Below, one piece after another: positions 1-26,136 of a DNA stretch of 31,498 nucleotides. Under the pieces are notes generated by a model, which saw only the letters and a program-made list of their open reading frames with translations, was not told the origin of the DNA and did not search any database. Positions within the stretch are counted from its first letter, which is position 1. Each line of letters opens with the position of its first letter. This DNA is from an uncultured Sulfitobacter sp. (GTDB lineage: Bacteria; Pseudomonadota; Alphaproteobacteria; Rhodobacterales; Rhodobacteraceae): the NCBI GenBank assembly GCA_937923365.1, contig CALAIJ010000093.1:1-31498 (forward strand). Direction: 5' to 3'. The position numbers and the translations under genes were made by a program.

Positions 1-3000
1 GTGCGTAAATGTCATCGGCTGCAGTGATGTTGGCATTGTTGCCAAAGCCCGCCGAGATGTTGACCGTCGAAGTGGCGTTGACACTGGAATTCGAAGCCGC
101 CCCGATGCCGCCTGTCGAAGTCGTTGCCTGGGCCCGCGCGGAGTCGCCCGTGGTGGACGTGCCCGTCGTGTTGGTGTTGAACAACGCGTCCACATCAACG
201 TCGCCCACAGTGGCTGTGACGGTCGCGCCTGAAATGGTGGCGTTGACTGTTGCGTTGGTCGTTGCTGTGGATTCCGAGTCTCCAAGGGCGACACCGCCAA
301 CGCTGACGCCCGAAGACACCGCATTGGATTGCATTTTGGACTGTGCCAGAACTCTAACGCTGTTCGCGGTGATGATGTCGTTTGAATTGCCCGTGACAAG
401 CGCCTGAACGGACCGCGTCGTGATCGCAACTGCGTCTGCCCCGACACCGGCCAAAAGACCGCCGCCGCCTGCTACCGCTGTGGCTTCGGACTTGACGTTG
501 TCGATGGATTTGATGCTTAGCGTGCCGCGCGACGTGACGTCGGCGGACTGAACTGCCGCAAGGTTCGAGCCGCCCATCGTGGCACCCGCTGTTGACGTGC
601 CTTTGGCCGCAAGACCGCCCACGACGGAGTTTGCATCTGCGTCGGCACGGCCGACTGAAACGCTGACGACGTCTACATTGTTACCGCCGACGCTGCCGCC
701 GACGATTTTTGCCGAAACGCTGCTGCTGTCAAAGGCGACCGCTTTTGTTTCTCCGCCTGCGATCAGGCCGCCCGAAGACGCCTGAGATTTCGCGCTGGCC
801 CCAAGGCCAAGATCGCCCGCTGTATCCCCACGCGCCGTGCCAGAACGTTCTGCGTTGTGGCGCGCATAGATATCTACATCGCCCGTACTGGTCACACGAC
901 CGGCCCCGATCAATGCATTCACCGCGGTCGAAACACTGGCCTGTGCGAGGGCACCACCAACAGACAACGCACCACCAGAGATGCCGCGCGCATCTGCATC
1001 TGCATCAATCTTGGAAATCGCTTCGACGGTCACAGACGTTGCATCAACCTCTAGCCCGGACCCGCCAAGGCTGGCCGTGACAGTGCCACCCACGGTGGCA
1101 TAGGATTCCACGCCTGTAACAGAGATGGCCGCGCCCGCAGAACTGGTCGCCGTGGCGTCAGCTTCGTGCGTGGCGTCCGCCGTCACGTTCAGCGCGCCCA
1201 CATCAAGGTCAGCCGACCCGCGAACCTGCGCGGTGACATCGGTGGTGACGCTGGATCTGGCGATTGATTTGCCCAAGGCAATGCCCGCCGCCTTGATCGA
1301 CCCGACAACAACTTCGGAATAGACATCACTGTCGGCCCGCACTGTGGCAGAACCGGATGTCGAAATGGTTGAACCGTTTACATCCGCACGCACCAGGCCC
1401 GTCACCAGGACTTTCATGGAGTTGACGCCACCCGATCCGATACCGGCCGAGATGGACTGGCCGCTGACCTTGGCGTTGATCTCGCTGTCGGCCTCCAGAA
1501 GGAAAGTCCCGACGCCACCCGATGTGCCCGTGCCAATGACGGCAGAGCTTCCGGTGCGGGCCTCGGTCGTGCCGCCGATGGAAGCCTCGGTGATAGAGGC
1601 CCCTCCGGCAATCGCACCCACGGTGGCTTCGGTCGAAGACAGATCGACATCACGCTCGCTGAACGCTTTTACGTTGACGGAATCCGCGTCAGTGACGTGG
1701 CCTTCAATCTCGGCCTTGGCGCCTGCGAAATCGTCATGGATTGTCACGGAGGCACCAAGTGCGCCGATCAAACCACCTGCGCCCACCGCACTGGTTGCGT
1801 CCGCGTTCACGCGCATGTCTGCCATCACGTCGACGGTGCCGGCTGCCTTGACGCGGCCGGCTGCATCGATGCTGGCCGTGGCAACTCGGTTGATGTTGGC
1901 GACGGTCACGCCCGCCCCTGCACTGCCGAGGCCGACAGCAACCGCACCCGCGATCGTGTCCAGATCAACCCGCTCGTTGGCACGCACATCGATGTTGCCG
2001 CCTGCGTTTACAGTGCCTGCGATGAAGGCATCTGTGCCTTTAGTCGTCACCGTTGGCGTGCTCAAACCGCCCGACGCGGCGTTCGCGCCCGATTTTGAAT
2101 TCACGGTGTCTTTCGCGCCATCGGTGGCCGAAGCCAGACGCGATGCAGCGGACGGCGTGCCGGTGCCGTCGATGCCATCTGCATCACCGGTCGAAGAGAA
2201 CCCGCCAAGGACACTGTTGGTCCAGGTGGTCGAGGAGGCATCATCTGCCAACGCCAGGCTGTCATCGCCCCCGCTGGACAATTCGCCACTTTGTTCGGAC
2301 GTCAGATCATTGCCCAGAGAAACGACAGAGACCGAAGCCGCAAGACCGATGCCCGCCGTCGCAGCGCCGGAGACAGCAATGGCGTCAATGTTCATCAGCT
2401 CAGCAGCACCGACGATCACGTCACCTGTACCAGTGGTGGTCAGCACGGTGCCGGATGTGGTGTAAGCGGATGTGTCCGACCGGACAACAACGACGCTGAC
2501 GGCACCTGCAGCGCCTCCGGCCAAGGCAAGCGACAGACCGCCGTTGCCGCTGAAAAGATCCAGTTTGTTGGTCGCGGAAATAACTGCGGACCCGCCGCTC
2601 GTCACGCGGGCGGAATTGCCCAGATAGGCCGAGGTATCGCTGTCCACGACGATGACACCAACAGCGCCCGCCGCCCCCACAAACCCAGAGGCCGCGCCTG
2701 CAGCACCAATCACAAAGACGTCTTCGGTGCTGGTCGCGGTAACGGCCACCCCTTTGATCGCTACTGTGCTGGCGCGATCGCCATCGTCATAGGTGTCGTT
2801 GCTGCCGATCAGGCCGCCATCAGCCACAGTCATGTTCGCCGCGCCAACGAGGGCATTCGCCGTCACGACGGAACTACCGCCGATGGACGCATCGGTCGTT
2901 TTCTCGATCACAATGACGTTGACGGCTGCGCCGCCCGCACCGGATCCACCAACACCGACCGCGCCACCGATGGAATCGATGTCCGTGGTGTGATTGGCCG

Positions 3001-6000
3001 CAACGGCGATGTTGAAATCAGCCGTGATGTCGGAGGCGCCATCAATGGCCGCAGTCACATCGGATGTGACAACAATCGCATTGGCCGAGGCCCCGACGCC
3101 GACACCCGCACCGGCACCGACAGCGATGGTGATCGCCAGAGCGTCATCTGTGCCCGACGCTGTAAGGGTAAAATCACCCGCGCTGCGCATTGTCGCGCCT
3201 GTGATGCGGGCTTCGGTCGTGTTGTCGAACACGGCAGCCGACGCGCCGGGGGCACCTGCGCCACCGCCAACGGCAACGGCGGCCATCACATTCAGTGCAT
3301 AGGCATCAGATGCCGCGCCGACGCTGATATCATCGCCGTTATCCGTCGTCGTCAGTGACGCGCCCGCGCCAATCAACGTCTTAGTTTCATTGAGGAATAC
3401 ATTTGCCGTACCGCCAAGCGCCACAGCACCCGCGCCGCCGGCAAGGTTGAACGAGATCGTCTCGACCCGGTCGGTCGAAATCGCCTGAACATGGATACCG
3501 CCCTGAGTGGCCGTCGCGAGGTTTGCGATACGCTCACCACTTGCACCGCCATCTGCAAAGCCTTCGGAACTCGCATCGGACAGGTCGACCTGACCGACCT
3601 CGCTCAAGTTGACGTCATTCTCGTCCGCATCATCTGCGGCAAACGTGATGCCGACGCCGCCTGTCAGGGTTTTCACACCGCTGCCTGTGCCCAGCGACAG
3701 CAATGTCGCCCCACCCTGGACTTCGGTCTTTGTCGATTTGTCGACAACCGTCACGCCACCGGAACCTGCACCTGCGCCAAGCGCGCCTGCAATCGCACCT
3801 GCCACCACGTCGAGGCTGGTCTCATCCAATGCGTTGACAGCGATGGAATCCCCCGCCGTCAAAGAGGCGGTCGAACGCACTGTCGCTTCGGTTGTGTTGT
3901 TGATCGTCACGACGCTGGCCGCACCGGCCAAACCGCCGTAGGCACCGCCCGCACCGGATGCGGACACGGCCACGCCTTCGTCCGAGGACAATGCGCGAAT
4001 GGCGATGTCGTCTTTGACGGTCACTTGGCCCGCAATATAGGCCTCTGTTTCTTTGGTCGTGACCTGCACGCCGACGCCTGCCGCGCCCCCGCCAGTGGCA
4101 CCGATGCCAACCGCGCCACCAGTGGTGATGACCGAACCAATGTCCCGTGCAAGGACCGTTGCATCCTGCCCGTTGTTTGCGCCATCGTCAGAGACGACTG
4201 TGCCCGCGCCAATCCAGGCACGTGTATATTCTTCCTGAACCGAAACAGCCGCCGTGCCGGCCACGCCGATGTTGCCGCTGGCACCGGCACCCACGGCGCC
4301 GGTGATGATTGTCTGGTCAGAGACCGCCGAAACGGCCACACCGCGCGTGCTTTCCAGCACTTTGCTGCCGCCCAATTCGGACCCTGTGGGCATGAACGTG
4401 CCACTGGTGTTCCCGCGCGCAATCAATGTGCCGTTGCCCTGCACCGACGCTTCGGTCGTGTCGCTGTGGAAGGTGACCGCAGCACCGACACCGACACCAA
4501 CCGCACCGCCGCCTGCAACGCCGCCAGCAAGGGTTTCGAGTGTGGCGTCGCTGTCCGCCAGAACTGTGGCGTTGCCGTTGGTCGTAACCGTACTGGCGTT
4601 GATCTGCGCGTCGGTCGTGCGGATGGCGGTTACATTCGAGAACGCCCCAGCCACGCCTACAGCATCGCTGGCACCGCCTGCGACGGTCAAAGCCGCTGCA
4701 AACATGTCCGACTGCGCCACAACATCGACACCCGTGGCTGTGCGTGTCGACAATGCGGTGATCGCCCGATCTGTCGCGCCCCGCTGGGCGTTTGCCGTCA
4801 CGGTGGAGCCTGTAATCTTGGCCGTCACATCGTGGGTCACGATGACCGTGCCGATGGTCGCACCCACGCCGACACCGGAACCCCCACCGATGGCTCCGCC
4901 GCCTGCGACGATGACCGCCGAGGTGACAGGCTCGATGATCGCGCCTTTAAGGTCTTGATCGGAAATACCGTCACGACCGCGGGCCGTATCGGCAAACAGG
5001 GTGACATTGCCGTCCGTGTTCAGTGTGGCGTCGCGCACCATGGCTGTGACGTCTTCCTCGGACGTCACGACTGCGATGACACCCGCCGCCGCACCGCCAC
5101 CGCCAACCGCACCGGCAACACCCGCCGCCACCAGCACCGGAGAGGCGGTCGCCACAAGGTCAACGCCGCGCACGGTCCGCTGCGCACCGGAATCGGTGAT
5201 GACAGTCGCGTTGGTTGCGCCTGCTGTGATCATTGCGCCGCCACCGATCAGGGCAGTGGTTTCGGCGATGCGCGTCAAAGTCACAAGCGTCGCACCGAAT
5301 GCCGGACCGCTGCCGCCTGCAACCGCACCGGATATTGGAACGATGATCGCATCACTGTCGGCCTCAAGCGTAACGTTGCCTGCAGCTGTCGTGACCGAGG
5401 TCGCACCATACACAGGGTCAGTCGGGCCGCGCGCCTCAACTGCGCCGATGGAAGCGCGCGTTTCATCCGTTTGCACAACGACGTTGATGGTGCCGGAACC
5501 GGCGATACCACTGCCGCCCGAACCCGCAACTGTCAGACCGGCCACGACAAAGAAACTGTCGGCATAGAGATCAACGCCGCGCACCGCGCGGGTGCCCTCG
5601 TCGTCTGGAATATTGCTTGCCGCGCCGTTGGCCATCGCCAGCACAGTCGCGCCTTCGGCGATTTCAGCTACGGTCTCTGACAGGGTGACGGCCACGGCAA
5701 CGGAAGCACCGATACCGCCAGAGCTGCCAATCGCCACGGCACCCGAACCGAACGTCAGGATCAGGTCGCTGTCGGACCCGATTGTCAGGTTGCCACCAGT
5801 CGTCACATCAGCCCCTGCAAGAAGGCTGGCGCGTGTCACATCATCAGTCACAATGACAGTGACCGCGCCCGCGCCGGAGAACCCGGACGAGCCCGCACCA
5901 CCGACAGTCAGGGCTACGATCACCAGATCGCTGTCAGCGGAAACATCGACACCCGTGATGGAACGGGTGTCGCCATCATCCGCCAGCACACTGGCCGGAC

Positions 6001-9000
6001 GCAAGGCGTCGGCGTGAATTTCAGCCGCGCCAATGACCGCTTGTGTAATGCTCTTGCGGGCAACAACGGTGCCTGACAGACCGACGCCGGTTGACCCACC
6101 GCCCGCCGCAACAGCACCGGTGATCGCAATGACCGTGGCGGTCGTATCTGCGGACAGCGACAGGTTGCCGCCGGTCGTGACGCGTGCGCCATCCATAACG
6201 AGGGCTTGCGTCACAGACGCATTGCCCGTCGCCGAAGGATTTTCATACTCGAGCGACGGCACAGGATTGGACCCGTCGATCACCTGCTCGGTGCCGAACA
6301 GGAACGCACCCGAGAATGCGCCTGCGCCCTGGAAACCGCCCGAAGAGGATGAGCCTGAAATCGCTGCTGCCACAGACACGATACGATCGTTGGCCGAAAC
6401 GTCTACGCCACGGATCGAACGGTTGCCTTCCAAGGTCGACACAACGGTGGTGTTGTCTGCATTTGCATTGATATCCGCGTTACCGCGAATTTCGGCAGAG
6501 GTGTTGTTGATCGTGATCAGCGGGGCCGCCGAGATGCCAACCGCGCCTGCGCTGCTGGAGATGGCAATAGAGCCTGCAATCATCGCCGCATTCAGCCGTG
6601 CATCCGCAGAGACCGACACATTGCCGCCAACACGCACAGTTCCGTCGATATAGGCGGTCGTCGTGCGATCCAGAACGCCCAGCGACAAGGAGCCAGCGCC
6701 AGCAAAGCTGTCAGACTGCGATCCGCCGACGGCGAACGTAATGATCGTGTCGCGAGAATCTGCGTGGACCAGCAGGTCGCGGCGCGCTTCAATGAAGGCA
6801 CCCGTACCAACGGAAGCAATGACATCGCGATCCATCGTGGTGATGCCAAAGGCCGCGCCGATTGCTGTGCTGCCGCCTTTGGCCGCACCACCCGTGGCTG
6901 TGATTTGCAGCGCCCCGGCTTGAGCTGCAACGGTGACATCCTGAGCGGAAGATCCACCCGCCGCAATCGTCAGGGCGTTGCCGTCGTCATTGACGCGCGC
7001 GTTGTCCGCGATTGTGGCCTCTGTCGTGCCCAGCACATTGATTGACCCGACCGAGCCCGCAAGGGCTGTGGCGTCGCCCTTCGCGCCCGCAAGAGCGACC
7101 ATGAACAATTTGTCGTCGGTATCAGCAGCCACGGTCAAACCGTAGCCGGTTCCACCAAAGTAGTTCAGACCTGCGCCAAAGCCGCGCGCGGTGACATTCG
7201 CCGTGCTTGTCAGCGCGGCGCGCGTGTCATGATCGACAACCATAACGCCCGGCGCAATGCCGATGCCCGTTGTCCCTTTGCCCACAGCGCCCACAATCGA
7301 AACGGCAATCAGTTGATCCGTCGCAAAGACCCCGACCGATCCATCCGCCGTTACCGTACCGCCAATCTCTGCGGTGACGTCACTGTCGACATAGTTCACG
7401 CCGACCGACCCTGCGAGACCAAGCCCGGTATCGGCAGACCCGAGACTTGCCGCTATAGAGACAAGAACCGAGAAATTGGAGGCCTCAACCGTCACATCGC
7501 CCGTGGCAGTCACGTTGCCGTCGATGCGCGCTTCGACCGTGTCATTATAGATGCCGATGTCAAAGGCCGCGCCAACGCCGGTTTGGTTGCCGTCTGCTGC
7601 CGCGCCAGCGACCGTCACCGAAACCGCATGATCGTGCGCGTTGACAGACAGGGTGTCCGCGTTGACGATCGACGCTCCGGCACCAATGGCAGCAAAGGTC
7701 GCATCATCCAGCACGCTCACATTGACTGAACCTGCGATGGCCCTATCGGATTGCGATCCACCTGACCCGCCCACGACAACCGCCACAGTTTCCGAGCGGG
7801 TTTCAGCCTCTACGGTGACGTCGCCATTGCCTGTCATCGTGACCGTGCCAGAGACGATCTGCGCAATTGTGTCACGGTCGAACTTGGTCACGCTGAGACC
7901 GCCGGCAATGCCGGTGTTGTTGCCACTTCCCGATGATCCTGTGATCAGTGTGATCGGCATCGACACGGACACCACAGGCGCCTGCGTCAGCGCATGCACC
8001 AGCAGATCGCCACCTACGGCGACATCTGTGTCGGCAATCGTCGCTTCGGTGTGCTGATTAACGATATTGATACCGATGGCGCCGGAAATTCCCAAGCCAG
8101 CCTTGCCGCCGACATCGACAGTGTTCTCGTTAACGGTCACATCACCCGGTGTGGGTGCGGTGGCAGGGGCGTTGTCAGCCGGATCGGGGGCGGGGTCGGC
8201 GCCGCCGCTGTCGGGCTTGGCACCCGCAAAGGCCACGGTCAGACCCAGATTGGTGCTGTCGGCTGTGACGTTCACGTCGTCTGCTGCTGTCACGCCAGCG
8301 TTGAAACCGACAGGGATCGTATCAGACACAACGTCGCCAATCTTGGCGAGGGTGACGTTGTTGGCGATGTTCACAGCAGAGCTGATCCCGATGCCTGTCG
8401 ATCCACCTTTCGCGAGCGACAGACCAAAGCTGAGCATCGTGGCCGAGTGATCGGCATTCACGGTGATATTGTCCGCTGAAACCCTTGCGCCGTCTTCGAT
8501 CCATGCACGCGCATTGTTGGCGTGGTCGTTGATCGAGATGCTGCCCTGGAAGTTCAGATCGTCGCCGCTGCCACCAGCATCGGTGACGTTAAAGACAAAC
8601 TGGCGTGTGACCGCGTCGACCATCAGATCTTTGGTAACGTTCAGCGTCGCGCCGTCGGCAATGTAGGAATCCGCTTCGTTCAGTTTGGACACATAGCTGA
8701 AAGCGCCGCCCATAGCGGAGCCATCGCTTTTGGTGGAGCCTTTGAACAAGGCTTTGATATTCGGGATGCCGACAATATCGACCGTCTCTACGGTGGCATC
8801 TGTTTCAATCGTTGCGCCTTCGTCGCCGGTGACTGTGACCAGAGCGCCTGTCCCGATCCCTGCACTGGCCTTGTTTTCGATCAGCATGATGTTGACCGAC
8901 CCGTTAAGCGCAAACTTGCCTTCCGGTCCGTTTGGCCCGCCGCCGCCTGCTGCGGCGCTGGCTGCGACATAGCTGGTCGCAACTTTGTTGGGTAGACCAC

Positions 9001-12000: not shown

Positions 12001-12424
12001 CGTCAAATGTAATTTTGAACGCGGGGTCGGGGCGGAACAACAGATCGACCGTCAGTTTGTCGGCGTCCGATGTGCCCGTAATCTGCACCTCGTTCACGCC
12101 ATCCAGTTCAGAGCTGGCGACGACTAACCCATCGATATCATTCGTCAATTGGATGCGGTAGAGGTCTTCCGCATCGTCGAACATCAGCCCAAGGGTGTAA
12201 TCACCGCCGTCAGACAACATATGCGCGAAAATTGGGTCTGCCGACAGCAGGATCCGCGGCTCCATGGCCTCCACGGTGACTGCGTGGCGGCGCTGGGAGG
12301 TCTGTTTGCGTTCCCGTCGCCGCGCGAACATTTCGCGAATTGCCGCACCGTAACTGCGTCGCACGGGGCGGGCCTTTGTCAGTGTGGAGATTTCAAAATC
12401 AGACTTGCCGAATGGAAAAGGCAT
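1..12424 (-). CDS. Giant LEPR-XLL-type repetitive surface/secreted protein (3' end beyond window)
   Basis: One uninterrupted minus-strand frame runs from an ATG at 12424 (AGGGA nine bases upstream) to the left edge, at least 4,140 codons. Sampled codons at 9289, 6421, 2062 and 4 are all in this frame. Residues 1-50 are basic with no ordinary Sec signal peptide. Residues 51-64 read VEAMEPRILLSADP, a Met variant of the LEPR-XLL motif known near the N-terminus of very large repetitive bacterial proteins. Residues 65 to about 560 are less repetitive and hold acidic RTX-like loops (e.g. GGDGEDELIL). The rest is degenerate repeats rich in Ala, Gly, Thr, Val and Ser, ending in phrases such as GGNVTVxADS. 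I noticed no cysteine in the translation. It follows three probable export genes on the same strand, 97 bp downstream of the SecA-like gene. Surface adhesion or biofilm scaffolding is plausible but unproven; no enzyme domain was recognised. The C-terminus, which could reveal an anchor or RTX signal, is not visible. Confidence 0.9.
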   Translation of the reverse strand, partial: MPFPFGKSDFEISTLTKARPVRRSYGAAIREMFARRRERKQTSQRRHAVTVEAMEPRILLSADPIFAHMLSDGGDYTLGLMFDDAEDLYRIQLTNDIDGLVVASSELDGVNEVQITGTSDADKLTVDLLFRPDPAFKITFDGGDGEDELILDGAKHTSVTYDLGANGTGTITQSEGGADHVRDFVNVELVTDTSAAESRTINDTVSGRGGSIVIGDNDVENDGLSRISMGPDASKTVLDFGKPALGGAYGSGALDINIMDGNDDIRFEGFDQQLTDAATELDLAGNPDVVARLIAGGNAELTGPQADVTWYIVGQDRAYVDGLFVSGVDTLTGAENNDDTFYFELNLGNTFADGGVNDPWETIDLPGRWSGVINGGAGGTDVIVQQGAIFSGPMAGSSGSASINLETFNYTGMEPTITVGGTVGDDDFTLRATGTGAFEIINGSGARFGGSTFNAGAPLVVNLGFGDDTFRLGTGLTAWAGSLTVRGDFGGDVIYMENDINTRGGDIKMDAELILVDGAVIDTRLLPGAVGSHGDILLEGGGSGVSSSRFAGIFSGSNPFENGGAQVEGAGIVIGGGAQLLAADVKGNTEAATAGNVTITVDAGFALDALAFTPGLNEKIAAAAIQIGNAVIRAGELKITANADSSKAVEIEIDVDALLGLPDDGSAEGDVEDGDVPLLVGGIQLVANELESAIQKQFDNLPVLGALTNKIPVHFMRAEAIAKIDLLDGLDVWAETSIDVDATATSELTFTNPGMNFGFTFGESDATALTTVEDGVTLEAGGLVSLAASAENTLDVATNIQSGLVFKAKKSTTTGSKQKRVKGPAIAVTLGDATTTATTDISAGAEIIAGDITISADTNTKQSVGTSSKIVQPQSNQGTAIGITVAFLNNQATAQVAGELTATDTITIEADAVNEETLLSTKASTKAKPAAADQGAAGAAKQQITGQASGLAGKWGGPGQFGLSAGVIVSENVLGANALVLDGARIEAETLNLTARVEDNFRTTAIGGSKAGAAVSLAGAVNVSQFDNDAVVRIDAATVTVGALVMSAEAIIPNQVDLLDEIPALGAAFSDLGTSLGDMPSLSDAFGAVWGSVDVEDPAATRGALADVQTAFTSYYDESLGPALTGVSDSITPFLGYLTPTGGLPNKVATSYVAASAAAGGGGPNGPEGKFALNGSVNIMLIENKASAGIGTGALVTVTGDEGATIETDATVETVDIVGIPNIKALFKGSTKSDGSAMGGAFSYVSKLNEADSYIADGATLNVTKDLMVDAVTRQFVFNVTDAGGSGDDLNFQGSISINDHANNARAWIEDGARVSADNITVNADHSATMLSFGLSLAKGGSTGIGISSAVNIANNVTLAKIGDVVSDTIPVGFNAGVTAADDVNVTADSTNLGLTVAFAGAKPDSGGADPAPDPADNAPATAPTPGDVTVNENTVDVGGKAGLGISGAIGINIVNQHTEATIADTDVAVGGDLLVHALTQAPVVSVSMPITLITGSSGSGNNTGIAGGLSVTKFDRDTIAQIVSGTVTMTGNGDVTVEAETRSETVAVVVGGSGGSQSDRAIAGSVNVSVLDDATFAAIGAGASIVNADTLSVNAHDHAVSVTVAGAAADGNQTGVGAAFDIGIYNDTVEARIDGNVTATGDVTVEASNFSVLVSIAASLGSADTGLGLAGSVGVNYVDSDVTAEIGGTVTADGSVGVFATDQLIAVSIVGAVGKGTTGIGIAPGVMVVDHDTRAALTSTANVTARGFGAGLNYFGGTGYGLTVAADTDDKLFMVALAGAKGDATALAGSVGSINVLGTTEATIADNARVNDDGNALTIAAGGSSAQDVTVAAQAGALQITATGGAAKGGSTAIGAAFGITTMDRDVIASVGTGAFIEARRDLLVHADSRDTIITFAVGGSQSDSFAGAGSLSLGVLDRTTTAYIDGTVRVGGNVSVSADARLNAAMIAGSIAISSSAGAVGISAAPLITINNTSAEIRGNADINANADNTTVVSTLEGNRSIRGVDVSANDRIVSVAAAISGSSSSGGFQGAGAFSGAFLFGTEQVIDGSNPVPSLEYENPSATGNASVTQALVMDGARVTTGGNLSLSADTTATVIAITGAVAAGGGSTGVGLSGTVVARKSITQAVIGAAEIHADALRPASVLADDGDTRSITGVDVSADSDLVIVALTVGGAGSSGFSGAGAVTVIVTDDVTRASLLAGADVTTGGNLTIGSDSDLILTFGSGAVAIGSSGGIGASVAVAVTLSETVAEIAEGATVLAMANGAASNIPDDEGTRAVRGVDLYADSFFVVAGLTVAGSGGSGIAGSGTINVVVQTDETRASIGAVEARGPTDPVYGATSVTTAAGNVTLEADSDAIIVPISGAVAGGSGPAFGATLVTLTRIAETTALIGGGAMITAGATNATVITDSGAQRTVRGVDLVATASPVLVAAGVAGAVGGGGAAAGVIAVVTSEEDVTAMVRDATLNTDGNVTLFADTARGRDGISDQDLKGAIIEPVTSAVIVAGGGAIGGGSGVGVGATIGTVIVTHDVTAKITGSTVTANAQRGATDRAITALSTRTATGVDVVAQSDMFAAALTVAGGASDAVGVAGAFSNVTAIRTTDAQINASTVTTNGNATVLADSDATLETLAGGVAGGGAVGVGVGAAVTFHSDTTEASVQGNGTLIARGNTSGTFMPTGSELGGSKVLESTRGVAVSAVSDQTIITGAVGAGASGNIGVAGTAAVSVQEEYTRAWIGAGTVVSDDGANNGQDATVLARDIGSVITTGGAVGIGATGGGAAGVGVQVTTKETEAYIAGQVTVKDDIAIRALSSDEGVAVSASGAGGAYGGLAGAASVVTINNTTEATVRSTASLTAGDSIAVNALDETSLDVVAGAIAGALGAGAGSGGVTVVDKSTKTEVQGGATLLSLGTGSGVKTLTGGVGITFAADDADENDVNLSEVGQVDLSDASSEGFADGGASGERIANLATATQGGIHVQAISTDRVETISFNLAGGAGAVALGGTANVFLNETKTLIGAGASLTTTDNGDDISVGAASDAYALNVMAAVAVGGGAGAPGASAAVFDNTTEARITGATMRSAGDFTLTASGTDDALAITIAVGAGAGVGVGASANAIVVTSDVTAAIDGASDITADFNIAVAANHTTDIDSIGGAVGVGGSGAGGAAVNVIVIEKTTDASIGGSSVVTANALVGAANMTVADGGLIGSNDTYDDGDRASTVAIKGVAVTATSTEDVFVIGAAGAASGFVGAAGAVGVIVVDSDTSAYLGNSARVTSGGSAVISATNKLDLFSGNGGLSLALAGGAAGAVSVVVVRSDTSAYTTSGTVLTTTGTGDVIVGAAELMNIDAIAVSGAATAGIGLAASVSVVSLGNDLTSEQSGELSSGGDDSLALADDASSTTWTNSVLGGFSSTGDADGIDGTGTPSAASRLASATDGAKDTVNSKSGANAASGGLSTPTVTTKGTDAFIAGTVNAGGNIDVRANERVDLDTIAGAVAVGLGSAGAGVTVANINRVATASIDAAGRVKAAGTVDVMADMRVNADATSAVGAGGLIGALGASVTIHDDFAGAKAEIEGHVTDADSVNVKAFSERDVDLSSTEATVGAIAGGASITEASIGGTTEARTGSSAVIGTGTSGGVGTFLLEADSEINAKVSGQSISAGIGSGGVNSMKVLVTGLVRADVNGSTISTSGSATVRADSDVYSEVVVGSIKAAGIALGKSIARSSVTTDVTAQVRGSADLDVGALNVTADATHEADATATSSAGAAISVTGVESYATVGGTVTASLGGSGLEVDATSVTVEAISKIDADADARGISGGALSVGGALAQASVSTAVNALIGAGRVTSTGDVDIYARHNAERSGTARGDTAGDLGLGASAKSQASSGGLIAGGETKAVAFDSSSVSAKIVGGSVGGNNVDVVSVSVGRADADANSVVGGLAAKGTSTAGATMGGSNLAAVQSADVTSRGTLSIKSIDNVKSEATAVAGGGGLLAGVGADAVAITTRSVQALVTGNSNDIITANSVRVLAQSKMQSNAVSSGVSVGGVALGDSESTATTNATVNATISGATVTATVGDVDVDALFNTNTTGTSTTGDSARAQATTSTGGIGAASNSSVNATSTVNISAGFGNNANITAADDIYA
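4331..6409 (-). repeat. Protein-level super-repeat inside the giant gene (about 375-456 bp per unit)
   Basis: The phrase G-V-(D/A)-(V/L), usually after an Arg-containing TR-x-(V/I)-x-G stretch, recurs at 6398-6409, 5942-5953, 5567-5578, 5156-5167, 4721-4732 and 4331-4342. The spacings are 456, 375, 411, 435 and 390 bp, all multiples of three (125-152 residues). Between them lies a second half-unit ending in a GGN(L/V)T(L/I)-type phrase, so the array alternates two kinds of repeat. A diverged copy (GVAV) is at 2741-2752. The repetition is clear in protein but poor in DNA, which points to old, selected repeats and not recent slippage. Confidence 0.7.
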
Positions 12425-12521
12425 ATAAATAGTCCCTGCAGAAAGGGTAAATGAAATGTCATGGTACCACCCAAAGGCGATTTAACGTAGGGGAAACTTA
12501 GTCTTTAGGGAGAAATCTGCC
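12425..12521. other. Short gap between SecA-like gene and giant gene
   Basis: These 97 bp separate the SecA-like stop codon from the giant gene's ATG. An AGGGA ribosome-binding site for the giant gene is visible. I see no convincing terminator hairpin or sigma-70 promoter, so read-through from the upstream export genes is likely but not shown. Confidence 0.4.
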
Positions 12522-14111
12522 CTAGGCGCGGGATGCGAAGGCCAGCAAACGCCGCCGACGCGTCGCTGCATCCTTTTGGCTAGCTCTTTGACGCGCCGCA
12601 ACCTTGCCGTGTTTTTGCCGTTGGGTATCCAGAAATCGCGACGCCCGAAGCCCGCGCCATGGCAGCACCGGCCAAAGCGCGCGCAGGATGCGCCAGCGCC
12701 ATCCCGACAGTGCCGGATCGTCCAGCGAGAGGCACTCCAGAACCTGCGCGTTGGCGTTGCGTTGCGACAGGGCAACCGCGGTGCGTCGGCTCTCGGCGGC
12801 GTCGGCCAGAACGATCAATTCCGTTGGCTCAGACAGCCCCTGTTCGGCAACTTCGCGACGCACGGGATCGATCCCGCCAACAAGCTCGGGACGGTCGGTG
12901 ACAATCGTCGCACCCGCCCGCGCGTGGCGCTCCAGAAGCTGGCCAAGCGCTGCGTTGTTGCGCACGAACTTCTGGCGTCGTTTGCGCCCATGCCGTGATG
13001 TCCAGACCGGCGCGCCATAAAGCAGGTACAACTCGCGCGCAGCACCATCCAGATCGGCTGCAACACCCCCCAAAAGAGGCAGTGCGTCCAGCACCTCGCC
13101 CAGCCCGATCTGCGCCCGCGAGCGGCGCACGGGCGTGGGGCGCAGACCGTTGCGCAATTCGACCATCTGCTGCATGCCGCTGGTCCAGGAGCGCCCCGGA
13201 TCGGGCGCGCCGGTCTGCGGGTCGATGATGGTCACGGTGTCGTCTTCGATGACATAATCATGGCCCTTGCGCAGTTGGTTGATCGCTGTCAGCGCGAGCG
13301 TCACCAGAAATACGCGTCGCGCGATTTCTACGGGCAGATCAGGATCGTCCACCTCGGCCACGCGCGTGCGTCCAATGGCGCTGAGGGTGGGTTGCTTTTC
13401 GAGCGTCCAGTCCCTGCCCTCCTGCAGCGCGTTGGCAAGCACCAGTGCACGGCGCCCTTCTGCCGGGGCAAAGATATGATCAAGTGCCACACCCCCCGCG
13501 ATGGCGCTGCGGGCGTCATCCAGCAAGGCGCGGTCCGCATCAGCGAGAATGACCGCCGGGTCGCGCCGCTCTGTTGGCACGGTCATCGGTTTGCCGCGCA
13601 ATTGACGCGTCGCCAGACGCATCGGCGTCGCAGGTTCGTCGATCAGAATCCGGTCACGCAGACGGTCATGGGCGATCCGGCGCAACTGCCCGACAGTCGC
13701 GCGTCCTTCGGGAAAAGCCGCCGCATCATCCAGCGGCTCAAGCGTCCTGCCCAATCGGGCAAACGACGCTTCCATCGCATCCGCCAGACGTTCCGCGTCT
13801 CCGGGATGGCTGGTTGCGATGGTGACCCCGCGCTGGTGTTGCGACAAAATCAGTGCCGCCAGTTCCAACACCGCTTCGCGCCGGGGCTGATTGAAGAGTT
13901 CTACGATCCAGCCCCGCGACACGGCCAGCGCACGCAAACGGTCAGAATAGCCAAGCTTTCGGGTCATCGCTGCGTGGGCCTGTCGCGTCTGCCGACCCCG
14001 CAGGGCAAGTCCGACGATGGCAAGTGGTCTGGCAACCGGCCAGAGCCGTACCCACAGTTTACGCCCCAGCTTGTCGAGTGCGCCTGCATCACGCCCTGCG
14101 CGTTGCGCCAT
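12522..14111 (-). CDS. Truncated SecA-like protein without Walker A (probable dedicated export factor)
   Basis: The 529-residue protein keeps recognisable pieces of the SecA motor. ILIDEPATPM (155-164) matches SecA SILIDEARTPL. DYVIEDDTVTIID followed by PGRSW (285-309) matches the SecA stretch around VDExTGRxxxGRRW. VTIATSHPGDAERLA (about 96-110) matches the VVTVNDYLAxRDAE region, and LLGGVAADLDGAARELYLLYG (346-366) matches the LxGMTGTA...YGL region. Where SecA has the TGEGKT Walker A loop, this protein reads VELFNQPRREAV (70-81), and the DEVDS motif is also missing. Housekeeping SecA is about 850-900 residues; this one lacks much of the C-terminal half and ends in a very basic tail. It lies 2 bp after the M50-HlyD gene and directly upstream of the giant gene. 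The resemblance is by eye. I infer a non-hydrolysing or strongly altered SecA paralogue that serves the giant protein. Confidence 0.75.
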   Translation of the reverse strand: MAQRAGRDAGALDKLGRKLWVRLWPVARPLAIVGLALRGRQTRQAHAAMTRKLGYSDRLRALAVSRGWIVELFNQPRREAVLELAALILSQHQRGVTIATSHPGDAERLADAMEASFARLGRTLEPLDDAAAFPEGRATVGQLRRIAHDRLRDRILIDEPATPMRLATRQLRGKPMTVPTERRDPAVILADADRALLDDARSAIAGGVALDHIFAPAEGRRALVLANALQEGRDWTLEKQPTLSAIGRTRVAEVDDPDLPVEIARRVFLVTLALTAINQLRKGHDYVIEDDTVTIIDPQTGAPDPGRSWTSGMQQMVELRNGLRPTPVRRSRAQIGLGEVLDALPLLGGVAADLDGAARELYLLYGAPVWTSRHGRKRRQKFVRNNAALGQLLERHARAGATIVTDRPELVGGIDPVRREVAEQGLSEPTELIVLADAAESRRTAVALSQRNANAQVLECLSLDDPALSGWRWRILRALWPVLPWRGLRASRFLDTQRQKHGKVAARQRASQKDAATRRRRLLAFASRA

Positions 14112-14113
14112 GG

Positions 14114-16282
14114 CTAGACTCCGAACCGATCAAGGAAGATCTGCCGCATCCAGCGGCCCCATTGCACCGCAATCGAGCTGCGGCCCTGATCGAAACGCAC
14201 CCAGACCCGTTGGTTGAAGAACAAGGTATCGGGGCGTCCGTCCACGGCCAGATCAAGTATGAACACGCTTTCAAGGGCACGGGTGGGATTGGGACCAAAA
14301 TCGGCAGGGATCGGACCGCCGAAGGTCGTCGTCAGTGCAGCGCTTGGCAGATCGCGGGTGGCGCGCGGTGTGCGCGCAACGACCTGTGCCGTATAGGTCT
14401 GGGACGGCTCGGTCGAGAAACGCAACGCAATCGGTCTCTGCCCCACGGCGATCCGGTCAATGTCTTTTTGCGGCACCACAGCACGCACAACCCAGCCGTC
14501 ATTGTCATCGGTGACATAGCCCAGCACGGTGCCCTGCGGCACAAACCGGCCCAGCGTATCTGCCCCGATCAGCGGCTGGAATTGTCCGGTTTGCGGGGCC
14601 AGCACTTGTAATGCATCGTGCTGCTCACCCAGACGCTCCAGATCGCGCCGGGCAAGATCACGCCGTGATACGTCAATGCGCGCCTGCAACGGGTCGCGGG
14701 CATCGCTGGCGGCGAGCTGAATCTCCGCCTCTTGCAATTGCGCGGCGACCAGCCGGGCACGCGGTACGGCGAGCGGATCTTCCAGCTGTGCCACCTGTGC
14801 GCGCGCATCATCGACCATGCGACCGGGACTTGCCACCTCACTCAGCCAGCCGCCGGTGCGTGTCATCACCCGCGTCTCACCGGGTGCGGTGACAACGCCC
14901 CACGCGATTGTTGCATCCGGAACGGGGATCACAATCAACGGCCCGCAGATCACCGCCACAAGCCCCGCCGACGCGATAAAGGCACGGCGACGGCGGGTTT
15001 CCAGCTCAGGCGCGCTCAACAGATAGATCACCGCCTTTGATATCGGCAGACCGATCATCAGGACGACAGACCACAGCGCCAGCGCGATCCCGACAAAAAA
15101 GAACTTTCCCGCCACGAATAGCGAAATCCCAAGCATGATTATCATACGGTAGATAAAGGCCAGAACCGCATACCAAAACAGCCACTTACGTTCTCCGTGT
15201 GCCGTAACGGGTGTGCGTGCGTTGTCCAATCCGAACAGATGACGGCGCACCAGATATGACAGGTACTTGTTGGACCGCTGGCCCAGATTCGGGACTTCGA
15301 TCAGGTCGGCAAACACGTAGTACCCGTCAAAGCGCAGCAACGGATTGCCGTTGAACAACAGTGTCGATATGCCGCCAATCAGCATCACATTGAACATCAA
15401 GGCCCTTGCCACGCCCGGCTCCATTTCGGTCCAGGCGATCATGGCCATGGCGGCGACAGCAAGCTCGACCATGATACCGGCCGCGCCGACCACCATGCGT
15501 TGACGCTTGGACGGGAAACCGATCGCGGCAGAGGCATCGACATAGGGCACAGGCATGAACACAAGGAACATCACCCCCACTTCGCGCACCTGCCCGCCCC
15601 AGTGTTTGACGGCATAGCCATGCCCGAGTTCGTGCAGCATCTTGACCACCGGATAAGAAATCAACAGCAACGCGATCCCGTTTCCCGAAAGCACGCGATC
15701 CACGATGTTTCCGGTCAGTTCGTCCCAATGGATCGCGGCCATCACCGTGCCCCAGACGATCAGCCCCAGCCACGCGATAAACCCCACCCAAGTGAACAGG
15801 GGCCGCACCAATGGCATCGTGGCACTGATAAAGCCGTCAATGGTGAAGAGCGGCACCTTGACGCCCAAGGGGTTGCGCATCGATTGCATCATCCGCTTGC
15901 GGCGCATTGTCTTGTCGCGCTCTGCGATTTCCTCGAGGTCGGGAATACGGTCGGTGGTCAGAACGCCTGCCACGTGAAGCTGTGACAGAAGTTGCACGAT
16001 TTCGTCCTGCGTGGGCGCGTTGACGCCAAGGCGCTCCTCTGCGGCGCGGGCGACCTCGCCCAATGCGCGGCGCCCGTCCATCAACCCGATCAGCGCATAG
16101 GCTTCGGGCGAGAAGCGGAAGAATTTCCCACCGGTCGGATCCTCCATCACATACCAAAGGGAGCCGCGAAAATATTGCCGGTGCAAAATGACGTGGGGGC
16201 GCAACGCAGGCCGCAGCGATGCGACTTGCGCCCAGATGGCTGAATATGGGGTCGGTGCGATGCTCACGGCAGCCAACGCCAT
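14114..16282 (-). CDS. PqqD-like / M50 zinc metalloprotease / HlyD-like fusion membrane protein
   Basis: The 722-residue protein has three parts. Residues about 30-110 resemble a PqqD-type winged-helix peptide-binding domain (FSPEAYALIGLMDG, then a helical half ending in LLSQLHVAGVL). Residues about 150-450 form a polytopic site-2-protease (M50) domain: HELGH at 217-221 supplies the two zinc histidines and catalytic Glu, and NPLLRFDG at 313-320 supplies the Asp ligand. After a membrane helix near 437-455, residues about 460-700 look like a HlyD membrane-fusion arm with a short coiled coil (about 490-560) and beta-barrel. Similar M50-HlyD proteins are known as peptide zinc metalloproteases. 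It overlaps the previous gene by 19 bp if the ATG at 16282 is used. A GTG at 16267 would give a GTGA overlap of 4 bp and is an equally reasonable start. The likely role is to bind, perhaps cleave, and pass on the giant protein; the substrate is inferred from position only. Confidence 0.85.
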   Translation of the reverse strand: MALAAVSIAPTPYSAIWAQVASLRPALRPHVILHRQYFRGSLWYVMEDPTGGKFFRFSPEAYALIGLMDGRRALGEVARAAEERLGVNAPTQDEIVQLLSQLHVAGVLTTDRIPDLEEIAERDKTMRRKRMMQSMRNPLGVKVPLFTIDGFISATMPLVRPLFTWVGFIAWLGLIVWGTVMAAIHWDELTGNIVDRVLSGNGIALLLISYPVVKMLHELGHGYAVKHWGGQVREVGVMFLVFMPVPYVDASAAIGFPSKRQRMVVGAAGIMVELAVAAMAMIAWTEMEPGVARALMFNVMLIGGISTLLFNGNPLLRFDGYYVFADLIEVPNLGQRSNKYLSYLVRRHLFGLDNARTPVTAHGERKWLFWYAVLAFIYRMIIMLGISLFVAGKFFFVGIALALWSVVLMIGLPISKAVIYLLSAPELETRRRRAFIASAGLVAVICGPLIVIPVPDATIAWGVVTAPGETRVMTRTGGWLSEVASPGRMVDDARAQVAQLEDPLAVPRARLVAAQLQEAEIQLAASDARDPLQARIDVSRRDLARRDLERLGEQHDALQVLAPQTGQFQPLIGADTLGRFVPQGTVLGYVTDDNDGWVVRAVVPQKDIDRIAVGQRPIALRFSTEPSQTYTAQVVARTPRATRDLPSAALTTTFGGPIPADFGPNPTRALESVFILDLAVDGRPDTLFFNQRVWVRFDQGRSSIAVQWGRWMRQIFLDRFGV

Positions 16283-18174
16283 GTGGCAAGGCGTAGCCAG
16301 TTCACGAAGTCCTGCGTCCAGACCTTCACCGTCAGACGGTCCTCGATCGACACGCGCGCCACCCCTTCCATACCGGGCAGCAAGACTTCCGTACCGGTCG
16401 AGGCAGGCGCCTCAAGATGTGCCTCAAGCGCAAAGCGGTTGCCACCATCTTCGGGTGTGGCAACGGACAGGATACGCTCGACCACGAAGGGAAAGGTCTC
16501 GTCCGGCCGCGCGGCAAAGCGCACGCGGCCCACCTGCTCCGCTGTCAGCACCGCGATGTCACCTTCCTCGACCGACAGCCGCAGGCGGTAGTCATCCAGC
16601 GGCGCAATCACGAACAGCTCTTCTCCGCGCGAAATTGCCGCGCCGAGTTCCTGTGTGCGATCCCCCGACACCACCACCCCGTCAAATGGCGCCACCAGTT
16701 CCGTACGCGCGATTTGCGCGCGCAACAGATCGATCTGTGCATTGGCCTGTGCGATTTGCGCGCCCAGAAGCGCCTCGTCGGTACGCCGCCCAAGGGCGGT
16801 GGCCTCGTTGCGCTCGATCTCGTTCTCGTTGAGCTCGGCTTCTGCCGCCAGCAAGCGCAGCCGCAGATCGCGGTCATCCAGTTGGGCCAACACCTGTCCT
16901 TCCGTCACGCGATCACCGGGGCGCACCGTCTGGCCCACAAGATAGCCGTCAAATGGGGCGGACACGATCCTTTGCACGGTGCCTTCCAGCCGCGCATCCG
17001 CGACGACCTCGAAGGCGGTGCGTGCTGTCGCCGCCCAAAAGATTGCCGCGGCAAGCAACAGGAACGTCAGCTTCGCACCAAGCCGCGCAGGCCCGAATAT
17101 CGCCGCCAGAATGCGCCCGATTGACGTCAGAAGGCGCATGGGCCAACCGCGATCCGCGAGCATCTTCTGACGCAGGATCGGACCTATCAACGCGCCGATA
17201 CCAAGTGCGAGGTCGCGCCGCTCTTGCGTCACGCCCGCCGCGTCGCGATGTTCCAAGGTCATCGCGCCGATCACCTCGCCATCCGCGTCACTGAGCGGCA
17301 AGGTCAGGACCGACATCGCGCCCTGCTGGCGCAGCAATTCACCGTGGGCACGGGACACGCGCGTGTCTTCTTGCGCGTTGGCCTCGGCGGTGGCGCGGCG
17401 CTGGATCGCACCACCCTGGTCAAGGCATTCCAGCATCGCACGACGGATCAGTTGCGCCAGCGACAGCTGCGTGCCCATGTCTGCCGTATGCGACACCGCT
17501 GCTACTTTGAGCTTTTTGCCGCGCAGTAACCCCACAGATACGCGATCGCAATCCAACCCCGCCGCCGTCGCAGTGGCCGCCGCCATGGCCGCCGCGCGGT
17601 GGCCTCGGGCCTCAAGCAGTTCCACCAGAACATCGATGGCCGCCTGCCCGCGATCCCGTTCAATTGCGATGCTATGTTCGCGGTCCCGCGCATCGTGCAG
17701 TTCGACCCAGCCGCCGCCCCATTGCAGCCGGCGCATCGCTTGACGCGCCTCTTGCTGGGTGGCTCCGTCTAGGCGCAACAGCGCAGCCCCAAGCAGGCGA
17801 TCATCGTCAAGATAGGGATAGCAGACGCAAATGACCTGATTGCCGGTGTCCCGCAGAACAGCGCGCTTGTCGGCAATTGCGCGTTCCGCTGTCGCGCTCA
17901 TATCGGAATCGATGGTTGCATCCGCGGGCCAGATGGCGCGGGGAATCATGTGATTGTCTTTGTCTGGTCCCGGCAGGATCAGCGCCGCTTTCGTCACCTT
18001 ACCGATAAACTGCGATTGGAGCGTCAGCCATGCATTGGCAAAAGCATCCGTCGGCGCCGAGGGGCGCAACATCTGCCAAAGCGCGCGGTCCACCATGCCA
18101 GTCTGGCTGTCGTCGCCTGAATCCTGTGACTTCGACGTTTGAGGGCTAAGGCCATCTTGGGAGGAAGCAGTCAT
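16264..18174 (-). CDS. GAF-domain / HlyD-family membrane-fusion protein
   Basis: In this 636-residue protein, residues about 30-160 and 175-330 look like two GAF-type sensor domains. The first holds LLGAALLRLDG and the second VLTLPLSDADGEVIGAMTLEH, the usual closing GAF strand. A single membrane helix follows at about 367-383. Residues 390-620 form a HlyD/RND-type periplasmic adaptor: the first lipoyl half (SAPFDGYLVGQTVRPGDRV, 405-423), a coiled-coil hairpin (about 435-490), the second lipoyl half (VAPFDGVVVSGD, 494-505) and a beta-barrel. The GAF part would sit in the cytoplasm and the adaptor in the periplasm. It is first in a run of three tightly packed genes, with its start 224 bp after the ccoS stop. 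The ATG at 18174 has only a weak ribosome-binding site. No ABC transporter or TolC-like partner is present in the window. Fusion of GAF domains to a secretion adaptor is unusual; the ligand is unknown. Confidence 0.85.
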   Translation of the reverse strand: MTASSQDGLSPQTSKSQDSGDDSQTGMVDRALWQMLRPSAPTDAFANAWLTLQSQFIGKVTKAALILPGPDKDNHMIPRAIWPADATIDSDMSATAERAIADKRAVLRDTGNQVICVCYPYLDDDRLLGAALLRLDGATQQEARQAMRRLQWGGGWVELHDARDREHSIAIERDRGQAAIDVLVELLEARGHRAAAMAAATATAAGLDCDRVSVGLLRGKKLKVAAVSHTADMGTQLSLAQLIRRAMLECLDQGGAIQRRATAEANAQEDTRVSRAHGELLRQQGAMSVLTLPLSDADGEVIGAMTLEHRDAAGVTQERRDLALGIGALIGPILRQKMLADRGWPMRLLTSIGRILAAIFGPARLGAKLTFLLLAAAIFWAATARTAFEVVADARLEGTVQRIVSAPFDGYLVGQTVRPGDRVTEGQVLAQLDDRDLRLRLLAAEAELNENEIERNEATALGRRTDEALLGAQIAQANAQIDLLRAQIARTELVAPFDGVVVSGDRTQELGAAISRGEELFVIAPLDDYRLRLSVEEGDIAVLTAEQVGRVRFAARPDETFPFVVERILSVATPEDGGNRFALEAHLEAPASTGTEVLLPGMEGVARVSIEDRLTVKVWTQDFVNWLRLATWRWLP

Positions 18175-18398: not shown

Positions 18399-18539
18399 TT
18401 AGCCATCGTCAGCAAGAATGCGGGCGGCGTCTCCACTTGGATCATCATACTGCCGCGCCTTCAGTGTCCAGATAAAGGCCGCAATACCCAGGCCACCAAG
18501 GCTGAGCGAAATCGGGATCAAGAAAACCAGTACATTCAT
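18399..18539 (-). CDS. ccoS: CcoS, cbb3 oxidase maturation protein
   Basis: A 46-residue protein starting MNVLVFLIPIS with one N-terminal membrane helix (about 4-25, through SLSLGGLGIAAFIW) and a short polar tail containing YDDPSGDAARIL, the typical CcoS pattern of a helix followed by a YDDPxGDAxRIL-like segment. Its ATG overlaps the ccoI stop codon (ATGA, 4 bp), so the two are translationally coupled. CcoS is needed to insert cofactors (haem b and CuB) into CcoN in Rhodobacter. It is the last gene of the ccoGHIS cluster. Confidence 0.93.
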   Translation of the reverse strand: MNVLVFLIPISLSLGGLGIAAFIWTLKARQYDDPSGDAARILADDG

Positions 18540-20668: not shown

Positions 20669-21114
20669 TGTGATGTCTCCACGATAACCCGCTGCCGAAA
20701 CACCGCACCGTTTTCAGCGCGCGCAACAAGGCGTAGGTTCCAATTCCCTGTCGCAGCCTCAACAGGTGCGACGAACGCTGTGCCATCGAACGCAAACTCT
20801 GGTTGTTGATCGACGGAAACCGATGTTGCGCGACTGAATATCGCACTGACTATTTCCGGTTCAACCGGCTGCCCCTTTTTCATGAATTCGAGCACCAGCT
20901 TGTCCCCCTGCAACTGCGCAGAGACGTCCCAGCCCAATGCCAATTGCGCAGCACGGTCGGCATCGAATGTCTGGCTTGCAACATAGGAATTTCGAACCTC
21001 AAGACCGGGGAAGGTCCGGACCGCATTCCAGGCCAGCGTGAGGTTCACGGCGATGATGATACCAAAACCCGTTACGAACATCGTGGCCACATGTTTGCCC
21101 TTTAGCTCAGCCAT
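20665..21114 (-). CDS. ccoH: CcoH/FixH, cbb3 oxidase assembly protein
   Basis: A 149-residue FixH-family protein: a short cytoplasmic start, one membrane helix at about 10-30 (ATMFVTGFGIIIAVNLTLAW), the family pattern NSYVASQTFD at about 42-51, and a periplasmic beta-rich domain. It is needed for stable assembly of the cbb3 complex. Its ATG shares one base with the ccoG stop (TAATG) and its end overlaps ccoI, so ccoG-H-I-S are translationally linked. Confidence 0.93.
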   Translation of the reverse strand: MAELKGKHVATMFVTGFGIIIAVNLTLAWNAVRTFPGLEVRNSYVASQTFDADRAAQLALGWDVSAQLQGDKLVLEFMKKGQPVEPEIVSAIFSRATSVSVDQQPEFAFDGTAFVAPVEAATGNWNLRLVARAENGAVFRQRVIVETSQ

Positions 21115-22526: not shown

Positions 22527-22553
22527 TTTGTCCGCCGTGCATGGTTCTTGGTC

Positions 22554-22595
22554 AGCATAGATCGGCGACGGCCCCAAAACCTTGACCCAGATCAA
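22554..22595 (-). promoter_or_regulatory. FNR box and -10 element driving ccoGHIS
   Basis: TTGACCCAGATCAA at 22582-22595 is a near-perfect FNR palindrome (TTGAT-N4-ATCAA with one change) and is the exact reverse complement of the fnrL-hemN site. With the site centred 41.5 bp upstream, transcription would start near 22547. TATGCT at 22554-22559 is then a correctly placed -10 (4/6), leaving a leader of about 21 bases before ccoG. This is a class II FNR-activated arrangement. Confidence 0.75.
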
Positions 22596-22611
22596 GTTTG
22601 GTTCTGGGACG

Positions 22612-23680: not shown

Positions 23681-23690
23681 CTGAGTCTCC

Positions 23691-24416: not shown

Positions 24417-24428
24417 GTGTCTTTCTCC

Positions 24429-26033: not shown

Positions 26034-26122
26034 CGTACGTGTCCCTCTTTCTGCGAATGCGGAAATCAGGCCACCCGACCCCGCATATCAGAATGAGTTA
26101 CGGCATGTGTTCGGATGTATCT

Positions 26123-26136
26123 TTGATCTAGGTCAA
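26123..26136 (-). promoter_or_regulatory. FNR box upstream of ccoNOQP
   Basis: TTGATCTAGGTCAA matches the FNR/FnrL consensus TTGAT-N4-ATCAA with one change and is centred 96 bp before the ccoN ATG. A class II start would fall near 26088, but the matching -10 (around TAACTC, 26095-26100) is weak. Activation of ccoN by FnrL under low oxygen is known in Rhodobacter. Confidence 0.8.

Follow-up and report, generated by a model that had tools for sequence, protein, structure and literature searches.

Secondary SecA_DEAD proteins without the wing/scaffold domain were described from several phyla by Kamneva, Poudel and Ward in 2015 (PMC4452313). According to the relevant passages of that paper, they are encoded with M50/HlyD, GAF/HlyD and HlyD/biotin-lipoyl proteins, sometimes with OEP and with no ABC gene, and were proposed to form a system like the type I secretion system (T1SS), with SecA as the ATPase that gives energy and the M50 protein as a possible pore. 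The same passages suggest a regulatory role for the GAF protein and report that the family has lost SecA_SW, a domain partly implicated in SecYEG binding. The paper assigns META1p2399-2402 of Methylorubrum extorquens AM1 to such a module. The main text contains no occurrence of LEPR, PqqD or giant and names no substrate, and our literature search, in which the other match was judged without its full text, found no follow-up. Here we analyse a locus of this kind from an uncultured Sulfitobacter sp. The window, that is, the whole stretch of DNA that was analysed, is the entire contig CALAIJ010000093.1 (31,498 nucleotides; G000:C93) of a draft genome, G000, that is 64.75% complete. Four genes on its minus strand encode the start of a giant LEPR-XLL protein, a SecA-like protein and two fusion proteins with periplasmic adaptor parts, and on balance we favour the view that the locus is a dedicated module for the maturation and export of a single substrate.

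In the window, as in the 2015 module, a SecA-like gene is accompanied by genes for M50/HlyD and GAF/HlyD, and the wing/scaffold domain has been lost. The window differs in a SecA-like protein with neither the ATPase motifs nor PF07517, in having no small HlyD gene beside the module, and in a giant gene downstream of the SecA-like gene. An earlier note on this DNA had called the module new; that cannot be upheld for the gene set, which was published without a substrate in 2015 (PMC4452313). For the link to a substrate, the leader hypothesis, the pseudo-SecA and the branch without SecA, we found no precedent in the literature searched. Those published mentions of the LEPR-XLL motif that the search brought up give no export mechanism in their relevant passages, and no route by which LEPR-XLL proteins reach the surface was found in a search mostly judged without full texts. 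RSP of plasmid R27, a large exported Ig-like protein, was considered as an experimental example and set aside, since the passages concerned report export by a type IV secretion system.

The HlyB/HlyD/TolC T1SS has in common with the locus periplasmic adaptors (in the window), TolC (in some loci) and RTX-repeat substrates (in relatives). The differences are a locus without an ABC exporter, a proposed signal that is N-terminal and an inner-membrane part formed by an M50 protease fusion. In accessory SecA2 systems a second SecA-like protein is reserved for particular substrates; here, by comparison, the 14 window open reading frames (ORFs) scanned encode no SecY, SecY2 or accessory Sec protein, and the SecA-like protein has neither the wing/scaffold part nor an ATP site.

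A gene module paired with LEPR-XLL giants

The predicted features of the module and of the giant gene are as follows.

16264–18174, minus strand: g4, GAF–HlyD periplasmic adaptor fusion, 636 aa (Pfam)
14114–16282, minus strand: g3, PqqD/RRE–M50 site-2 protease–periplasmic adaptor fusion, 722 aa (Pfam, NF041824, fold model); RRE, RiPP recognition element; RiPP, ribosomally synthesized and post-translationally modified peptide
15947–16216, minus strand: RRE (PqqD-like) domain of g3, residues 23–112 (Pfam, fold model)
15620–15634, minus strand: HELGH zinc site of the M50 domain, residues 217–221 (sequence)
15326–15346, minus strand: NPLLRFD, second M50 motif, residues 313–319 (sequence)
14156–14923, minus strand: periplasmic adaptor part of g3 (MacA/AcrA/MexA-like), residues 454–709 (fold model)
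12522–14111, minus strand: g2, SecA-like pseudo-ATPase, 529 aa (Pfam, alignment, fold model)
13158–13391, minus strand: SecA preprotein cross-linking domain (PF01043) of g2, residues 241–318 (Pfam)
2–12424, minus strand: giant LEPR-XLL protein, first 4141 aa (NF012209)
12236–12274, minus strand: proposed leader motif, residues 51–63 VEAMEPRILLSAD, behind a basic, non-hydrophobic N-terminus (NF012209 region, tag alignment)

The genes are packed closely: g4 and g3 overlap by 19 bases, and gaps of 2 and 97 bases separate g3 from g2 and g2 from the giant gene, of which only the first 4141 codons can be read because the window is a whole contig and the gene exits at its end. This run of four nearly gapless same-strand genes was the starting observation of the earlier note, and it holds well beyond the window. 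Among 80 loci of type A, the best 80 of 580 when ranked by likeness to g3 and thus descriptive of the near branch, GAF/HlyD is present in 79, SecA-like in 78, and all three genes stand in one order on one strand in 77. Chance is excluded for the arrangement because the same-strand order GAF/HlyD–M50/HlyD–SecA-like recurs in these 77 loci from other genomes.

Co-occurrence was examined in 299 genomes of the phylum Pseudomonadota. NF012209, the LEPR model, matched in 50 genomes and the M50/HlyD alignment matched in 85, with both in 48 (Fisher p 1.5e-29); M50/HlyD is thus present in 48/50 LEPR genomes vs 37/249 others, where three candidates per genome were scored at first and more were scored later for 49 of the 50 LEPR genomes (all but G000). 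Counted by genus, the figures are 29/30 with LEPR and 15/123 others. The two LEPR-only genomes are G279, called from a 64-aa ORF, and G212, which is 86% complete. In 14 well-known genomes used as controls the LEPR model gave no match at E 0.01, one (Deinobacterium chartae) at 0.05 and seven at E 1, one of them above the cut-off. The tie between module and LEPR-XLL giants proposed in the earlier note came through this test, and it also shows in gene positions. Of 77 LEPR sites, 62 fall in ORFs of at least 1000 aa, and 36 of these 62 lie within 12 kb of an M50/HlyD gene, a figure that becomes 14/18 in assemblies of at most 30 contigs. The single-contig genome G006 holds three LEPR giants, each at most 5 kb from its own M50/HlyD gene.

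Seen from the module, 43 of the 80 loci are evaluable, extending for 6 kb or more to either side. In 36 of them an ORF of 1200 aa or longer lies within 3 kb on the same strand, its N-terminus, and with it any tag, mostly falling outside the stretch; as a rough yardstick, an opposite-strand ORF of that size occurs somewhere in 20/80 loci. The remaining seven were considered as counter-examples and rejected, since in all seven genomes LEPR ORFs of 5,428–15,371 aa were found about 12 kb or less from the module on the same contig. Every one of the 43 evaluable loci is thus accompanied, at a distance of about 12 kb or less, by a giant ORF or LEPR giant. Plasmids give a similar picture: a search with g2 returned 13 matches, and the five loci examined carry together a giant, often a DUF3467 gene, GAF/HlyD-type, M50/HlyD and SecA-like genes and mostly a small adaptor. 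The giant is annotated as LEPR-XLL in two of these loci, a Methylosinus plasmid also has TolC, and at one locus (L003) the giant's side has no annotated gene. As judged from sequence, then, a LEPR giant stands beside a predicted RRE–site-2 protease–adaptor fusion and a GAF–adaptor fusion, a pairing that is conserved across Pseudomonadota.

The GAF and HlyD_3 matches of g4 (31.9 and 63.4 bits) both exceed their cut-offs, in agreement with the GAF/HlyD fusion first recognised by eye. A third small adaptor was matched in 59/80 relatives' loci, in L067 at least apart from the module, and TolC accompanies some loci; the suggestion that two HlyD arms form the entire bridge across the periplasm is thus not supported. 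A Pfam scan found no ABC ATPase, OEP/TolC, TpsB or autotransporter barrel in the 14 window ORFs, as the earlier note had also reported, with the reservation that the giant gene and an ORF at 29802–31496 are both cut by the contig ends, so that a barrel beyond them would be invisible; the result says nothing about the remaining genome. Two further genes accompany relatives of the module, a SapC-family gene in 28/80 type A loci (e.g. L004, L072, L074, L080, L105), lying in L004 between M50/HlyD and SecA-like, and DUF3467 genes, matched in 27/80.

The RRE–protease fusion and the LEPR tag

Pfam places HlyD_3 in g3 above cut-off (28.9) and PqqD (21.4) and Peptidase_M50 (18.4) below it. NF041824 (daptide_HExxH) covers residues 26–411 with 147.2 bits and an E of 7e-43, under its 300-bit equivalog cut-off, which marks g3, by its sequence, as a relative of the daptide enzyme and not the daptide enzyme itself. 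The fold model supports the RRE, with the expected fold at the N-terminus, and the adaptor part; the motifs HExxH and NPxxxxD are both present, and HExxH recurs in 80/80 relatives without having been part of the scan pattern. Values of the ratio of nonsynonymous to synonymous substitution (dN/dS) are 0.04–0.08. The PqqD-like/M50/HlyD fusion that had been called by eye is borne out by domain calls, NF041824 and fold model, and g3 is modelled as an RRE, a site-2 protease akin to the leader peptidase of daptides and, behind it, a periplasmic adaptor.

In daptide biosynthesis, as the passages seen of PMC10036551 describe it, the intramembrane site-2 protease MpaP likewise bears a fused RRE at its N-terminus. 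The leader motif there is ELExMEAP, with L(−7) and M(−4) essential, as shown for the RRE of MpaB and not of MpaP, and its spacing equals that of the LEPR tag. The likeness ends with the score given above, with the C-terminal adaptor of g3, with a giant protein as substrate and with the lack of daptide-type enzymes among the scanned window ORFs. We infer a parallel between the LEPR tag and the daptide leader from this analogy.

The giant itself matches the LEPR-8K model NF012209 at residues 50–69 (28.7 bits vs a cut-off of 17), which places it among the LEPR-XLL proteins, and contains 22 LktA_tand_53 repeat stretches. Related giants next to the same variant of the module have ORFs of 7731–7919 aa; pieces of three of them show 21–22 RTX-type repeats by pattern, and at least two such repeats were seen by pattern in 43/44 giant pieces examined. 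PF00353 was found in 4/4 C-terminal pieces by Pfam scan. RTX repeats near the C-terminus are known from relatives only, the window giant being incomplete before that point. T1SS substrate chains with RTX repeats fold on contact with calcium outside the cell, which would suit an unfolded passage in one step. Many giant ends (L070–L146), inspected by eye, carry a tryptophan-centred motif, e.g. GLIDWS or GGWMVMRAD. A basic or amphipathic tail often comes after it, and these ends may act as a second sorting signal.

N-termini were scanned in 50 loci and the tag motif was matched in 46, a set that includes the window (L008) and near-identical pairs; the pattern was unmatched in L011, L012, L187 and L220. 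The tag is found 17–101 residues from the start of the ORF, behind a stretch that is mostly basic, with no Sec-type signal peptide or hydrophobic core ahead of it by hydropathy. When the 46 N-termini are aligned on the invariant E (position 0; 46/46), position −1 is L, M or I in 46/46, position −4 is hydrophobic in 41 and position −3 is E or D in 34. The last two features occur together in 33/46, against a background of about 2% (0.228 × 0.091), among sequences that are related to one another. The tag of Pontibrevibacter, for example, reads LDPMEPR. The proposal that the PqqD-like domain binds the MEPRILLSAD region has gained strength from the RRE fold match and the daptide-leader spacing; binding as such is a prediction. 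A DUF4347 giant adjoins the SecA-less module at L187 (153–10061), where the tag pattern is unmatched, and the tag may be looser than the pattern used.

Pseudo-SecA and SecA-less loci

The only Pfam match of g2 is SecA_PP_bind, at 43.9 bits vs a cut-off of 23.5. SecA_DEAD (PF07517) gave no match at E up to 1, Walker A and the DEAD box are absent in the alignment, and the wing/scaffold family PF07516 was not matched either. The model of g2 nevertheless keeps the fold of the SecA motor and of the preprotein cross-linking domain and can be aligned with B. subtilis SecA as far as about residue 612. Walker A and DEAD are kept in 70/74 SecA-like relatives of at least 480 aa; the other four, all of the window's lineage, have neither. 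A missing Walker A motif, noted earlier for the SecA-like protein, is thus a property of the window's lineage and not of the family. Two relatives from the same lineage (P0010 and P0011) carry PF07517 in the precomputed annotation.

A pseudogene was ruled out by a dN/dS of 0.13–0.25, indicating purifying selection with weaker constraint than on g3, and by seven relatives at 58–88% identity. Nor was a hidden active SecA-like copy found in G000 (about 65% complete), Litoreibacter or Pseudoruegeria, where only a housekeeping-size SecA occurs besides; both Roseovarius genomes do hold an additional active copy. From these sequence comparisons, the window's lineage is seen to keep the predicted SecA fold under purifying selection with its ATPase motifs lost.

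A second set comprised 36 loci, drawn from the 37 genomes with M50/HlyD and no NF012209 match, with the weakest match, G122, left out. In 32/36 there is no SecA-like gene, and TolC is nearby in 17 of these 32; several of the 36 are contigs of 3–8 kb, so genes missing there mean little. With the same reservation about short contigs, the SecA-like part is not supported as a necessary element. A giant with a related tag, e.g. LEPRMMFDGA, is present in 6/36 loci, and the tag pattern was matched by 5 of the 21 ORFs of 1000 aa or longer whose N-terminus can be seen, a set that includes shadow ORFs, vs 0/349 ORFs of 300–999 aa. Plasmids of Kosakonia, Azospirillum, Burkholderia and E. coli likewise carry giant, TolC, small adaptor, HlyD and M50/HlyD genes without an annotated SecA; Azospirillum brasilense Sp7 is an example of this SecA-less type with TolC. 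Taken together, the SecA-less loci and plasmids indicate that the core common to both branches is M50/HlyD, adaptors and giant, and that the SecA-like gene belongs to one branch.

The SecA-less module (giant, TolC, two adaptors, M50/HlyD) at L184–L188 and L220 lies on plasmids that include E. coli IncHI1B plasmids. A match to its M50/HlyD gene was obtained in 24/5426 complete E. coli genomes, and the N-terminus of the E. coli giant shows no match to the tag pattern. Phage origin was considered and dropped, as the SecA-less M50/HlyD query had no match in phages.

Proposed maturation and export of the giant

In the scheme that we favour, the cytosolic RRE of g3 probably binds the N-terminal motif of the giant (VEAMEPR here), as RREs bind RiPP leaders, and there is a slightly better than even chance that the HELGH site-2 protease of g3 then cuts near the EPR-ILLSAD junction. 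With about even chances, the unfolded chain would cross the inner membrane and envelope along a path made up of g3, the adaptors and a TolC whose gene lies elsewhere, and the C-terminal RTX part would fold with calcium outside. More tentatively, an ancestral SecA-like ATPase may have fed the chain, and the pseudo-ATPase of the window may still clamp or escort it; energy would then come from another source, such as the housekeeping SecA, another ATPase, the proton motive force or folding outside.

The main rival holds that the giant is a conventional RTX substrate of an ABC-type T1SS encoded elsewhere, and that the module merely trims or modifies its N-terminus, the adaptors tethering the protease to the export complex. 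The RTX repeats near the giants' C-terminus would fit this, as would the PrtD- or LssB-type T1SS ABC exporters found above cut-off in 16/19 LEPR genomes tested, the window's own included. Against it, G019, G082 and G064 have neither family above cut-off (only these two were compared), and the module has its own adaptors and, in the SecA-less loci with TolC nearby, its own TolC, which a trimming enzyme would not need. Nor is an ABC gene conserved: phmmer with two seeds, used in place of a strict regular expression that failed its positive control, found an ABC ATPase ORF in 6/80 loci, in 2 of them within 3 kb. We regard this rival as unlikely. Transport through SecYEG, driven by the SecA-like protein that is active in most relatives, with M50 as a signal-peptidase-like trimmer and the adaptors as a second step, draws on the Walker A and DEAD motifs of those relatives and on the SecA fold with its preprotein-binding domain. 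It is nonetheless improbable, given that g2 aligns only with the part of SecA that ends at about residue 612 and that the family is reported in PMC4452313 to have lost SecA_SW, a domain partly implicated in SecYEG binding. The SecA-like gene is moreover missing from most loci of the second set, the window copy has lost its ATP site, and hydropathy gives the giants no Sec-type signal peptide.

Site-2 proteases often act in signalling, and g4 has a GAF domain. The module might accordingly be no exporter at all, sensing the state of the envelope through GAF and site-2 protease and regulating expression or release of the giant, in line with the role suggested for GAF in PMC4452313. We consider this very improbable: the module encodes no regulator, its adaptor-type proteins, with TolC in SecA-less loci, point to transport, and RRE domains bind leader peptides, which the conserved N-terminal element of the giants resembles.

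Several points weigh against the dedicated maturation-and-export module itself. Each step of its mechanism is inferred from sequence and models. Other loci lack the SecA-like ATPase and the copy here is inactive, which leaves the scheme without an assigned source of energy, and the PrtD and LssB exporters of LEPR genomes mean that RTX giants could leave by a conventional route. TolC was found in 0/80 type A loci (phmmer, six seeds) and in one of the five plasmid type A loci. In the good assemblies 4/18 LEPR giants are not near an M50/HlyD gene, and the genomes of the sample are not phylogenetically independent. The RRE region of g3 also matches the methyltransferase Rv2067c and the carbamoyltransferases GdmN and NovN, at slightly higher Z (10.1–11.4). 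To our knowledge none of these is a leader binder, so the RRE fold by itself is no proof of leader binding. In the tag, positions −1, 0 and +2 were part of the search pattern, which leaves only −4 and −3 as independent, and E/D at −3 is found in 34/34 LLSAD-type tags vs 0/12 tags with D at +6 (the FDAA type, mostly from SecA-less loci). The daptide counterpart of position −3, D(−6), can be replaced without loss (PMC10036551, passages seen).

The loci might even form a separate Gram-negative secretion class, for which we would give somewhat less than an even chance. Giant RTX-type proteins would carry the LEPR-XLL tag as a RiPP-style N-terminal leader; an RRE would recognise it, the intramembrane site-2 protease fused to that RRE would cleave it, and adaptors with TolC would take the chain out with no ABC exporter involved. 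The motor would be optional: a SecA-like protein at most loci of one branch, its pseudo-SecA form in the lineage of the window, and none in the TolC-linked branch. LEPR-XLL proteins are among the longest predicted bacterial proteins, their ORFs reaching 19,427 aa in the 299-genome scan. Were their tag an RRE leader, a motif defined by conservation alone would gain a function, RRE recognition would widen from short peptides to giant proteins, and a T1SS-like conduit without an ABC exporter would become a question directly open to testing in laboratory strains. The pseudo-SecA lineage offers a natural experiment on the need for a SecA-like motor.

Directly upstream of the module, at 18536–26870, lie fixGHI/ccoNOP-type cbb3 oxidase genes and a gene for a Crp-family regulator, with no sign of belonging to it; the sole ATPase seen in the window, a P-type ATPase, is part of these cbb3 oxidase genes. 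The readable part of the plus-strand ORF at 29802–31496, which leaves the contig, has no LEPR tag and carries polymorphic outer membrane protein (PMP) repeats, making it a second surface-type protein of the window.

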